64,000 nucleotides of DNA. It comes from Mesostigma viride. Its lineage: Eukaryota > Streptophyta > Mesostigmatophyceae > Mesostigmatales > Mesostigmataceae. Below are positions 6,128 to 63,000 of the stretch, piece after piece (the first letter of the stretch is position 1; every line of letters begins with the position of its first letter). Made by a program: the position numbers and the translations under genes. The stretch lies in NCBI GenBank assembly GCA_009746045.1, contig RPFO01000027.1, positions 2,054,202 through 2,118,201 on the forward strand. Reading direction: 5' to 3'. Under the pieces are notes generated by a model. It had not been told where the DNA came from. It worked only from the letters and a program-made list of their open reading frames with translations, and did not search any database.

Positions 6128-9100
6128 TGTTCATAGAACGTGCAACGACAGCCGAATAGGTGATGCAAACCACGTTTCAGCCGCCTATTCAAAACGAATA
6201 AACAAGTGTATAAGCATGTCGCTTATCTCAGTCTCAATCCCCAGTCAAAACATAAATCACGTATCAGTAGTTGTTTCACTGAAGAACCTGTGACATCATT
6301 CTCACTCAACAAGGCCAAGGAGGCGTGATAGCGCGTCTGATTCATCAAGGGGTACTGGGACACCAGGTCCGGTCACACAATATCCCCAGGGCGTGATAAT
6401 CACGACACACCAGCGCTAAAGTATCCCCAGCATCTTGATACCAACGGCATGACTAGGCGCAAAATAGTCAACGCGTAAAGCATCCAGCCAGTTACTGCAA
6501 GCTGATGGGTGAGCACGACAGCGACCAGCAAACTGCGTGCTCTGTGGGCAATTACTTAAGCGTCGAGCAGCCATCATGATGGCAATAAAGTTCGATCATT
6601 TTAACGTCCAGCATAACTGCATGCTAGTCCAGAAGAAGGTAAACACACCCAACCAGTGCTGTGAATACTGCCATAACGCACATATTGAGCTGCGAGGAGT
6701 CTCTACCTAGATGGTCAACAGTAGTTCCTATGACAACCCCAACTGTAACTTGGAAAACTGCTGGTGTCAGCCAGAGTCAGTTGCAGCCAGAAGTCGCGAA
6801 GCTCGCTGCTTGCAGAACCGGTACTACAGAGCTTCGCGTATAGGCATTTTAAGGAAACGTGCTGTGAAGCAATGTTATCTGCTTCTGCAGGTCACACATA
6901 TGACTGGTTGAGAACTGCCACTTGTACTACAATACCCCCTTATAAGGACTATGACGGATGCGTGACGCACAACTCGATGCTACAAGCTCACACGCTACCT
7001 ACCTGGCTGTGTGTAGAACGGGTACTACACCCACCTCGAGCCAGCACTGGGAATACTGTATCAAAATTACATTACCGCGCATGAATTATCCCTCCATGCG
7101 TCACCTACCTGGCTAGTTATAGAACTGGTGCTACTACACCCCCATGGTCAGGACAATAAAGAATGCTACCATGCATGAGTTATGCAACCAAACATCACGA
7201 ACCTGGCTGGTGGAGAAGCGGTACTCATGATTGTAGACGCTGCATCACCCAGGGGAATCCAGCGCCAGGCAGAGACCACAGGCACAATAGGATAATAATG
7301 TTTAGCGTTATGATGTGGCCAGGGAATGAAGCAAGGTAACCATCGGCAAACAGGGTCAAAGGTTTAAAGCCTCCTGTGTCTGTATTCGCTATGATCGTAC
7401 ATGCGGTTGTGATGGCCATGTAGCATTGATATTGAATGCTGCTAGTTTACTAGCATTTATATATGAACATCATGAGTAGCTATTGTAGTATAGTTTACTA
7501 CATAAGTTATACTACTACTATATGAACATCATGATTAGCTATTGTAGTATCGCAGCATCCTACAAGAGTGCATTGCACGCATATGTAAGAAACAGCATTG
7601 TTGTCTTTGAATAGGTAAGAAACAGAATTGTTATCTTCGAATAGGTCAGAAACAGAATTGTTATCTTCGAATAGGTAAGAAACAGAATCGCTATCTTCGA
7701 GAATTTCTTTTCATGAAGGCATGCTCCCTCATCCCAGGACGAGGATGCCGAAAGGTGCTCACGGGTCGCCAGATGTCATGCGCACGGCTGCGCCCACGAT
7801 TTCGGTCACCAGGCAACAGCGCCCCTCACATGGGCGCAAACCACCATGCCACATCTGCTGACACATCACCAGTCACGTAGCCAACGACACTATGGTGCTA
7901 CTAGCACTTACACGTTGCCGGTCACTATGGCGCTAGCACTTTGACGTTGCCGGTCACTATGGCGCTAGCACTTACACGGTGCCGGTCACTATGGCGCTAG
8001 CACTTACACGTTGCTGGTCACTATGGCGCGAGCACTTAGACAGTGCCGGTCACTATGCTGACAGCTCTACCCTCTTACACGTTGCCGGTCGCTATGTGTG
8101 CTGACAACACTCACATGTTGCCGGTCACTATGCTGAAGGAGGTCGGGCTGTGCCCCCAGCTGCAAATCTCGGTGAAGAGCACGCTCTTCAGCACCTCCTG
8201 TGACAAACAAAGACATGTTGCGGATGCAAGCACAAAGGCAAGTGGTGAATGCTCGTGGTCTACTGTTACAAAGTACGTATGTCAAGAACAGGTGAAAAGA
8301 AACGTCTCCAGCACCTTCTGCAACACCGAGACATGTTGCGGACGCAAGAATGTGTGGAATTAATGGCGAACACGCCCATGTCACAAACAGGGGAAGAGGA
8401 CGCTCTTCAGCACCTCATGCATCAATCAGCAAACCCGACCGGTAATGGACGCGAACAGGGGCACAGGGCAACAGACAACATAACACAAAACGGCATAGTC
8501 ATTGAACCAAAAATTCTGTGTTATCCTTCCTAACCCCAACTACGTCCCCCGTCCCCCCAGGATCTTCCAGCATAAAAAGTCTTAAACGCAACAGCTAGAG
8601 CGCACGGAAAAAGAGTAGTTTTGTTCCATACTCCTAGGCCCCCACCTTGGCTGTGGTGCTCACAAAATGATGACAATTACCGCCGAATGGTAAACATGGC
8701 TTGAAGCTAGATCCTTTCTCACGCTACAGCCTACATGCGATCGTCCGTTTCAATTGCACCTCGGCGGTCGCGTGCACCGAGACGACAGGTCCTCACCCAA
8801 CGAGCTGCAATTGCTGAAGCATTTCATCCCCGCTAAGAACAAGCCCGCCCAACCCACCTTGGTGGTCGCGTGCTCACATCAGTCGTATCCACCAGTCGTA
8901 TCCACCTGTTGGATGCTGGCTAGCTCGCCTCACCTTGGTGGTCGTGTGAACAAAGGACACCACGGTAGACAACCATCGTTGCCGAAGTGTTTCGCGCCCA
9001 TGGAATAATATAATACATGTAAGTAGCATAGTAAAAATATAACACACGTATCCGCTATATATAAATAGCCCACACAACCCCCTTGGTCATACTGCAGACA

Positions 9101-60000: not shown

Positions 60001-63000
60001 CTCGACTTGTCTCACGACAGAGGAGATAGGTTTTTTCCCGTATTCGGTCCTGACATGATAATTCGAGAGTGCATATTACATCGGTGCCACAATATTGAGA
60101 ACAGAGGAGATTCGTACTCGTCCTGACGTGATACGAGTAAGCATCACAAGCAGGACATTGATGAAGCCTTCCATACGTAGGTGCTATACCTATCTTTCCT
60201 AACCTGGGCCAAGAGGTCGGCTTGGACTCGCATCCCTTGGGGCCAGGGCAACGCATCCATGCAGCAAACTAGTTGGGCCATAGCAGAAAGCAGGGGCAAT
60301 AAGGCATTGGAGGAGCTAGGAATAGGGCATTGGAGGAGCGAGCTCGACATCAGGCATAGAAGGAGCTAGTAACAGAGCGTAGGAAGGAGCTAGGAATAAG
60401 GCATAGCAAGGAGCTAGGAATAAGGCACAAAAAGGGCGTCAGCTCGGAAGCCACCAACCGGTTAGTGACAATCTTTTTGCGTCTTTACTATAAAATAAAG
60501 CATACTGGGCGTTATTCATTTTGGTCAAGCAGGCAGCAGCAGCAGGCAATAAAATCCGTGAGAAAAATATGCACAAAGCGGCACAAGTTTCGGGTAGACT
60601 GTCTGAGTACAGATATCAAAGTGCCCTCCTTCAACGCAATTAACGCGCGCCTCAGTATGGGATAGATGACTGTGCGCTTATTGTAGACCCCCGCACTTCA
60701 GGCCGATCCAATCGTACGTCAGCTACAGGCTCGTGATGTAGCATGTCAAGCAATCGCTTGCTTCCAATGAACAGAACACAAACCTTAGAAATGTAACTCT
60801 GACAAAGTTGACCACAGAAGGACTCCCAGAGGGGAGCCCCAGATAACGGCACTGTTCATCTACCGCCATAATCCTCGGCCTAAACTCAACACTGGAGCTT
60901 CAACACACCACAGGAATAGGTGACCAACCCCAACCAAAGGAAGCGCACCCACCGACATAGTGCGGTGCGACGTCAGGACTGAACCGCTGCACCGGATACA
61001 AAGGCGCAAACAAGGCCCAAACCCATACCCAAGGAAGGGCACCCCCTGATGATGTCACACCGCTGCTGTTCATAGTCAAGCGGCTGCTTCAACAGACCAC
61101 CCAAGCCTCCATAACACCCGCGCCTTGGAGAGAACACCCACGCCGCAATAACTCCCAAAGAACACCCACCGGTGGTGCCGCACCGCAGCCAGCGCCGGAC
61201 GCACATTCACAAGCCCTGCCGCCTCCTGCGCAGCGTTCGCCACCAAACTGTTGGAATTGGTCACGCGAGCTGCACTCGCGAAGACCACACGGGTGCCAGC
61301 CTTATCATCCCCGCTCAGGTCCCATGTGAGGGCTGACCGTGGGCTGGGTGGCCCAATCACGACCACCTCCTCAGCCCCCCAGTTGACCCCCTCCCCCTCT
61401 CCCCCTGGTTCTTGAAGCAAGGCTCCCCCCTCCTGCCCCCCTTGCCCTTGGGCATCTCGCTTCTCCCCCTCTTCAAGCGTTTGCTCATGGGCATGCTCTT
61501 GGGCATGCATGTCTGGCCCTTGCATCGGCAGCACCTTGATGTAGTGCAGCAGCGACAGCAGACGGTCGTCGCCGCACACGCGCCAGCGGTCGCCCTCCCC
61601 CTGCGCCACCACGCCGCCATCCGGACACGCGGGGGGCAGCGCCAGGTGTGCCGTTCGCCAGCTCGCCTTCTCGGGCTCCAAGGGAGGCGTCGCGGTTGCC
61701 AGAAGCGTGTCGAAATGAGCCACAAACGAGGACGCCAATGCATGGGAGTACTGGGGGTGGCCCGGCCGAGGTGGGATCGGACGGGTTGTGGGGAGCACGC
61801 TGACGTCACTGCCGCCAATGATCTGATTGATGTCCCTGGCAGCCGCCCTGGGAGGCCATGCATCATAGCCCCCTACCGACCACCCCACCGTCCCCCATCG
61901 CATCAATTGGCCATGCGAGACCTCAACATTGTCCACAATCCCTGCAGGTGCCCCATCCCCCTCATTTACAGACAGATCTCTCCAGGAGCCCAGCACTTGT
62001 GCTGCCTCTTCCGTCCTTGATACCCCATCGCTCATCCTTGATGGACCGAGCAGGGGGATAGCGCCACCTGGCAGCACGGTACCACCGCCCTGTGGATTTA
62101 AATGACTGTCTTCCGGCACGCTCACCAGATGAGGGGTGGACGCGGCGAGCGGACCCCCCGCCTGCTCACCTCGGGCTCTCTGAAACGATTCCTCGGGATA
62201 AGGGCCCACAAAAGCCCGCGGCTGCGGCTGCGGCTGCGGCTGCGGCTGCGGCTGCGGCTGCGGCTGCGGCTGCGGCTGCGGCTGCGGCTGCGGCTGCGGC
62301 TGCGGCTGCGGCTGCGGCTGCGGCTGAAGTCGACTTTCCTCCCCCCCCCTGTCCCTTACCCCATGCCCGGTCTCCAATGGCCCGCCACCCCCTGGCTCGT
62401 TCGTCGTTCCAGACAGGCCACCCACCTTTGTGCTGGCGCTGACTCGTGTCTCGCCGCTCCCTGGCAGGGAGGAGCGGGTCCTTCCTCTGGGAGACCGCTG
62501 GTAGGGCAGCAGGGCCAGGAGGGAGAGCCGGCTTGACAGCTGGTAGGCGGCGCGGCTCGACAGCTGGTAGGCGGCGTGGCAGGCAGGTGGGTGGTCATCT
62601 TCAATGCCTTCATCATCTTCTTCGTTATCGTCTGCCCTTTCATCATCAACATCTTCCGTGGCCTGCGTCTGGTTTGGGGACCACGTATGTGTGGGTGTGC
62701 GTGTATGTGTGCGTGTGTGTTTGTGCATGTATGCGTTTGTGTTTGTGTTTGTGCTTGTGTTTGTGTTTGTGTTTGTGTTTGTGCTTGTGTTTGTGGGTGT
62801 GCGTGTGTTTGTGTGTGTGCGTGCGTGTGTGTGCGTGTGTGTGCGTGCGTGTGTCTGTGTTTTGATGCAAAACTTGTTGGGGGGCAGGGGGGGGGGGCAG
62901 GAGAGAGCAGCCAAATGGCCATGACCGTCAGAACGGGGAAACATTGCCGCCATGTATTCTAGAGGTTCCCCCGTCGGTAACCGTGTACCGTAGCCATGCT

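Follow-up and report, generated by a model that had tools for sequence, protein, structure and literature searches.

Repeated sequences that carry splice sites are known from introner elements, which are dispersed among genes. In a potato gene for an RNA-dependent RNA polymerase (RdRp), a tandem genomic duplication across an intron-exon boundary was reported to have created a new intron (PMC4974935). Intron gain has further been attributed to the tandem duplication of exonic sequence containing AGGT, i.e., a proto-splice site (PMC2891723), and mutually exclusive exons were described to derive from duplications of an exon together with adjacent intron sequence (PMC6071210). Here, we consider copies of exon edges, i.e., the end of an exon together with its splice site, which lie in the adjoining introns of the streptophyte Mesostigma viride and were first noticed in a stretch of 64,000 nucleotides, referred to as the window (GCA_009746045.1, contig RPFO01000027.1, positions 2,054,202 to 2,118,201 of the forward strand). 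The genome of this species comprises 442 Mb in 2363 scaffolds, with a mean intron length of 1142 bp and 30.1% of the intron space being repetitive; the section of the genome report dealing with intron length names repetitive elements as its cause and is silent on exon-edge copies (PMC6947507). Among the titles and abstract openings listed from the open-licence literature, no report of genome-wide exon-edge copies in introns was found, and passages of PMC11228838, PMC6330051, and PMC3488318 were uninformative in this respect.

Two genes on the minus strand of the window, termed gene A and gene C, served as starting point. For 29 of their edges, queries made up of 40 bp of exon and 10 bp of intron sequence were aligned to the intron in question as well as to 200 shuffles per edge, and 13 edges reached p ≤ 0.015, 11 of these having the lowest attainable value (floor) of 0.005, without correction for the 29 tests. 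These 13 edges sit in ten exons, namely 13545, 11321 (both edges), 9214, 8197 (both edges), 7239, 55676, 54243 (both edges), 52329, 51225, and 50409, with 55676 and 50409 being the weakest (p = 0.015; Table 1). A first-pass annotation of the window had listed at least ten exons featuring such copies; nine of its ten examples held up, the exception being exon 49241 (p = 0.28). In alignments with queries of 60 + 60 bp, the copies cover about 12–70 columns of exon and mostly 17–70 columns of intron, one C6 copy having almost no intron part, and they have diverged from the exon as well as among themselves, as had been stated. Three junctions lie inside tandem arrays detected by Tandem Repeats Finder (TRF), with units of 27, 32, and ~102 bp. 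When the intron on the other side of the exon was used as target, two of the 29 edges, the A6 donor and the A11 acceptor, were at the floor (0.016 with 60 shuffles); for the A6 donor the reverse strand scores even higher, and the two edge queries from A11, which is 37 bp long, overlap each other.

The observation of exon-edge copies in adjoining introns was confirmed in a main set of 43 introns with 86 edges, whose exons were checked by frame and homology (smaller sets of 25 and 40 introns are named where used). On the forward strand, 31/86 edges have a diverged copy within the intron next to them; on the reverse strand, 0/86 do, which bears out the sense orientation noted earlier. Unrelated introns from within the set yielded only 2/258 edge matches, and 1/32 edges matched the intron at the opposite end of the exon. 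Exon 40-mers devoid of any intron sequence still matched in 29/86 cases (reverse: 1/86). The copies occur in sense orientation only, close to their source and within the adjoining intron alone, and about one third of the examined splice junctions are overrun, often leaving a usable-looking splice site in the intron.

Since genes A and C were picked by the first-pass annotation for this very feature, the sample is important for judging its generality. The only genes chosen before their introns were seen are six compact multi-exon kinesin genes on six contigs, obtained from a genome-wide search for the kinesin family; the choice of compact genes favours shorter introns. In their 18 introns with clear joins (36 edges), 10/36 edges have forward copies and none a reverse copy, and these copies occur in five of the six genes, on contigs other than that of the window. 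A sialidase-like gene, referred to as gene S (C335:1170903-1179843, C335 being the contig of the window; minus strand, nine modelled exons, BNR_2 7.4e-58), has copies at 8/16 edges, and some of these copies closely resemble the exon; it was chosen after a gene finder scan had shown high edge scores there and was then supported by Pfam. The claim that unrelated genes share the feature consequently stands and extends from A and C to gene S and five kinesin genes. Across 119 introns predicted by the gene finder, at a score of 85, donors gave 27 forward and 2 reverse matches and acceptors 22 and 3, counts which serve as support only, because many of the predicted introns are surely false.

Is this copying directed at junctions? 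Intron 50-mers at least 150 bp away from either intron end, matched within the same intron, were used as interior tiles, and 268/923 of them (29%) have a sense copy compared to 36% of the edges, which corresponds to a ratio of 1.24 (bootstrap 95% 0.92–1.67, 43 introns); as the interior tiles include edge copies, the two rates are interdependent. The ratio was 1.53 (1.12–2.09) in the first 25 introns and 1.34 in 40 introns, i.e., the excess shrank on adding unselected genes. Outside the exons listed by the first-pass annotation it amounts to 1.06 (0.70–1.57), and in the six blind kinesin genes to 0.86 (0.48–1.95). Exon interiors showed nothing above background, with 5/229 forward and 16/229 reverse matches. 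The suggestion of a process copying DNA across junctions is partly supported: copying across junctions is repeated and occurs in unrelated genes, but intron interiors are copied about as often as edges. The expectation that exon edges are copied more often than interiors came close to failing for intron interiors, which are near-equal, and exon interiors are clean. A looser scan (≤500 bp, counting also repeats inside the exon itself) flagged 20/150 exon-interior, 130/836 intron, and 666/3453 other-DNA tiles, very unevenly among stretches (2% to 69%); since other-DNA tiles were also flagged, local tandem duplication extends beyond introns. In a separate repeat scan, 40 kb (C335:1060001-1100000) held no scorable tile and are probably masked or withheld sequence.

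These data are, in our judgement, probably best explained by neutral short tandem duplication, which is placed with little regard to exon boundaries and filtered by selection on exons. Introns would grow and turn over via short tandem duplications with units of mostly ~27–240 bp, at least sometimes nested. Any duplication lying wholly within an exon would harm the protein and be lost, whereas a duplication in the intron, or one crossing the junction with the second copy on the intron side, would not alter the message provided that the outermost splice site is used, and could persist. As the second copy is retained on the intron side and exon duplications are lost, junctions would appear overrun and exon interiors clean. 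The exon-edge copies would then decay neutrally, with the exon remaining under constraint. The mutational step might be slippage or the repair of staggered breaks, and the copies are presumably neutral, with the outermost sites presumably being the ones in use. In line with tandem duplication, local repeat matches in the first 25 introns were 366 forward and 0 reverse, with offsets of mostly 30–240 bp. Inspection of the sequence at the S7 donor of gene S showed that nested smaller repeats lengthen the spacer, and a similar nesting may exist at other copies.

The decay of the copies was followed in 35 copies with at least 15 aligned columns on each side of the junction (25 introns). Counting gaps as mismatches, the final 20 bases of the exon have a per-site identity of ~0.80, compared to ~0.69 for positions +4 to +20 of the intron; gap columns number 201 in the intron part and 87 in the exon part. 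A lower identity on the intron side is the expected contrast, since only the copy drifts against the held exon, whereas in the intron both drift. Simulated neutral tandem duplication gave a contrast between exon-derived and spacer identity similar to that observed, so that selection on the copies need not be invoked. A gap-tolerant measure of spacer identity did not separate real (0.81) from shuffled (0.78) sequence, and comparison with simulations was used instead; masking of edge-derived intron sequence with long queries was abandoned as too noisy, the reverse strand giving about as much as the forward strand in several introns.

Placement was further addressed by simulations of random tandem duplication, in which purely exonic events were removed and small indels and exon constraint included; parameters were assumed and results compared with the 40-intron ratio of 1.34. 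Location-blind models in which duplication had stopped earlier gave ratios of 0.87–1.15 (P 0.04–0.15), and growth from ~100-bp introns followed by a stop 1.05–1.49 (earlier run with a narrower length filter). Several results weigh against the neutral, location-blind account. Most location-blind simulations predicted fewer edge copies than observed, a point in favour of the first-pass annotation. Location-blind steady or ongoing models reached ratios of only 0.66–0.72 (P ≤ 0.004 for 1.34), a shortfall that leaves room for an enrichment of edges by a factor of up to about two. The stopped models predict 0–2% young copies, but 18% of the edge matches (and 24% of the interior matches) are ≥90% identical. 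In location-blind and anchored steady models the contiguous blocks come out too long (block/distance 0.56–0.87, compared to an observed 0.38), and no simulated model, each run as single histories, fitted all observations. Under strict extension with a null, moreover, only 6 of 22 nearest copies form contiguous head-to-tail units, with nested repeats accounting for at least one of the others (S7 donor), and once gaps are excluded exon and intron parts are equally similar (0.789 and 0.785, 35 copies).

A junction excess of up to twofold is therefore possible, and it is the basis of the strongest competing explanation, in which duplications are formed or retained about twice as often at junctions, e.g., by transcription-linked breaks, R-loops or exon-templated gene conversion at edges. 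A steady simulation with 20% forced junction-spanning events indeed fits edge rate, ratio and ages, although it misses block length, whereas the location-blind steady or ongoing models underpredict edge copies. Copy-copy identity in the exon-derived part (0.78) likewise exceeds that of models with a quiet end (0.70–0.74) and agrees with ongoing ones (0.78–0.80). However, much of the edge excess comes from genes A and C, the ratio is below 1 in the blind kinesins and close to 1 in the exons off the original list, and anchored models give a block/distance of 0.69–0.87, compared to the observed 0.38. We regard this explanation as rather unlikely. If it nevertheless held, which we equally doubt, junctions would act as a hotspot at which short tandem duplications arise or are retained roughly twice as often, expression would shape the sites of intron growth, and genes would carry a dated series of decoy sites.

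The first-pass annotation had also proposed selection for spare splice sites, kept as backups or as decoys regulating splicing. Of 55 copies from 40 introns, 42 kept the dinucleotide (GT in 30/40 donor and AG in 12/15 acceptor copies), a figure inflated by the presence of the splice dinucleotides in the copy queries, and 26 have scores that reach at least the 10th percentile of real sites and thus lie within their range. Per site, however, the dinucleotide positions are retained at 0.86 and 0.80 (35 copies), like the adjacent exon bases (~0.80), and intron interiors are duplicated at about the same rate. We consider selection of this kind improbable.

Very improbable, in turn, is that the copies are left over from the duplication of whole exons or from intron gain via duplication of AGGT-containing exon sequence, even though both routes are known (PMC6071210, PMC2891723). 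The copies hold one edge together with its own intron flank, their exon part does not exceed 55 bp (strict extension, 36 copies), and exon interiors are uncopied; for the AGGT route, both the exon-interior counts and the 1/32 matches to the intron on the other side speak against it. Chance likeness of GC-rich, motif-like junctions, to which the consensus common to splice sites could contribute, is ruled out to near certainty by the reverse-strand, unrelated-intron and exon-only controls given above.

Table 1. Exons, exon-edge copies and tandem arrays of genes A and C (window coordinates; copies are given in the direction of the minus strand; p from 200 shuffles).
Feature	Position	Strand	Observation
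Gene A MyTH4 exons	17507..18953	-	Gene finder exons 18953-18902, 18273-18126, 17768-17507; acceptor 18273 has a copy ~145 bp upstream; Pfam MyTH4 7.5e-22
A5	13368..13545	-	Acceptor 13545 set by hand (gene finder: 13527); four diverged copies of exon start upstream: 14179-14099, 14075-13981, 13864-13819, 13789-13684; p = 0.005
A6	11763..12574	-	No significant edge copy
A7	11185..11321	-	Acceptor copy 11528-11412; donor copies 10912-10832, 10829-10767, 10749-10659; both edges p = 0.005
A8	10214..10460	-	No significant edge copy
A9	9128..9214	-	Donor copies 8965-8882, 8875-8843, 8809-8713; p = 0.005
A10	8115..8197	-	Acceptor copies 8468-8373, 8365-8291; donor tandem array adjoining; both edges p = 0.005
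A10 donor array	7901..8132	-	TRF: 32-bp unit x6.9, each consisting of A10 exon end + 5' splice site; first unit overlaps exon end
A11	7203..7239	-	Donor copies 7132-7060, 7026-6943, 6922-6850, 6825-6762, ~100 bp spacing; p = 0.005
C2 (kinase exon)	55619..55676	-	Donor copies 55532-55471, 55454-55346 (weaker); p = 0.015; Pkinase
C3 (kinase exon)	54165..54243	-	Acceptor copy 54540-54428; p = 0.005
C3 donor array	53985..54180	-	TRF: 27-bp unit x7.0, C3 exon end + 5' splice site; first unit overlaps exon end; donor p = 0.005
C4 (kinase exon)	53502..53576	-	No significant edge copy
C5 (kinase exon)	52219..52329	-	Upstream copies of 3' splice site + exon start: 52693-52612, 52598-52514, 52491-52416, ~102-bp units; TRF 52308-52599; p = 0.005
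C6 (kinase exon)	51082..51225	-	Donor copies 51019-50905, 50904-50851, 50844-50734, 50724-50697; p = 0.005
C7	50307..50409	-	End set by hand (gene finder: 50292); acceptor copies 50699-50630, 50596-50528 (weaker); p = 0.015
C8	49156..49241	-	Claimed acceptor copy p = 0.28; weak long alignment

The exon models of genes A and C were built from reading frame and splice signal and join without stop into single open frames of seven and eight exons, respectively; C1 of gene C is an open frame of which the donor side alone entered the edge tests. The frames of the joined proteins are backed by myosin FERM and talin matches and by Pfam IRS and Pkinase, and in the A8-A9-A10 protein the myosin VIIb FERM alignment crosses the A8/A9 join with a gap of one residue and the A9/A10 join without gap. 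Neighbouring exons of the same two genes encode a MyTH4 domain (gene A) and a PP2C domain (gene C); these exons were picked after the gene finder scan of edge scores and supported by Pfam afterwards. Judged by these domains, gene A is predicted to encode a MyTH4-FERM protein, which we take to be KCBP-like, and gene C is probably a PP2C-kinase fusion with the PP2C domain upstream, spanning 49156-64000 of the window and reaching beyond its end. In the models of gene C, a TGA trinucleotide repeat with 46.7 perfect copies (window 58294-58433) is translated, according to frame, into a long run of either serine or isoleucine.

The gene finder is a simple hidden Markov model (HMM), for which the manually built exons of genes A and C and three long open reading frames (ORFs) of the window served as training set; self-training on codon usage was discarded, as it drifted to repetitive ORFs. 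A second region, which includes gene S, comprised 200 kb elsewhere on contig C335, of which ~160 kb were passed through the gene finder. Several introns and exons were set aside. The 3.9-kb intron before A5 was left out of the main set, so that the start of A5 and the end of A11 are part of the 29-edge shuffle test and absent from the 86 edges. Also left out were the PP2C introns adjoining exon 67977-67886 and the artefact exon 64768-64732, as well as those kinesin introns whose joins were unclear (L030, first and last; L034, first). Small HMM exons in or beside kept introns were disregarded (L030 103-114 and 1511-1532; L032 528-563; L034 323-342), and some edges in L030, L031, and L032 were set by hand from frame and match positions. 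On contigs C622 and C2, kinesin exons were matched with the same scores and at corresponding distances, which points to an allelic or duplicated part of the assembly.

Apart from genes A and C, the window contains reverse transcriptase ORFs (RVT_1) of retroelements between or beside genes, at 37074-39290 (minus strand) and 3409-4614 (plus strand). Three long ORFs with a high GC content at third codon positions at 25223-32952 (plus strand) match Peptidase_S8 and LRRNT_2, weakly LRR_4, and LRRNT_2, respectively, and possibly represent one or more LRR and subtilase-like genes.

Taken together, the exon-edge copies are a striking and true observation, the cause of which is most likely ordinary. 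Near-duplicate splice sites at known distances and of known ages beside real sites of normal genes represent a natural test set, by which RNA sequencing could address, e.g., how the spliceosome selects the outermost site among several that resemble each other and by what means introns become longer in the absence of transposons. They also call for caution in gene prediction: in gene S, our gene finder called an apparent decoy copy as exon (72983-73057 in the far2 numbering), which was dropped as it resembles a copy of the start of the next exon.

Compared with described systems, the copies share with introner elements the repetition of sequence bearing splice sites, but they are gene-specific and local, and introner elements were rejected as explanation on account of the rare matches of edges to unrelated introns of the main set (2/258). 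Like intronic minisatellites, they form head-to-tail sense arrays where TRF detects them; here, however, the arrays cross the splice junction, their units bear the exon edge and splice site, and many copies are detected by alignment alone and missed by TRF. The reported duplications behind mutually exclusive exons resemble them in that a single event spans exonic and intronic sequence, but whole exons are duplicated there (PMC6071210) and merely one edge here. In the reported intron gain via AGGT, a short tandem duplication near coding sequence likewise supplies intron material, with a coding proto-splice site as its source (PMC2891723) instead of an already present junction together with its intron flank. 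The initial view that no described mechanism predicts such copies was not correct, since in the duplication published for the potato RdRp gene the boundary is likewise included and splicing signals are passed on to the second copy (PMC4974935). That case, as reported, concerns a new intron in one gene, whereas in M. viride about one third of the junctions is affected by mostly decayed copies inside existing introns, with no evidence of new introns. What is new compared to this single published gene is thus the scale at splice junctions and the arrays of decoy splice sites.

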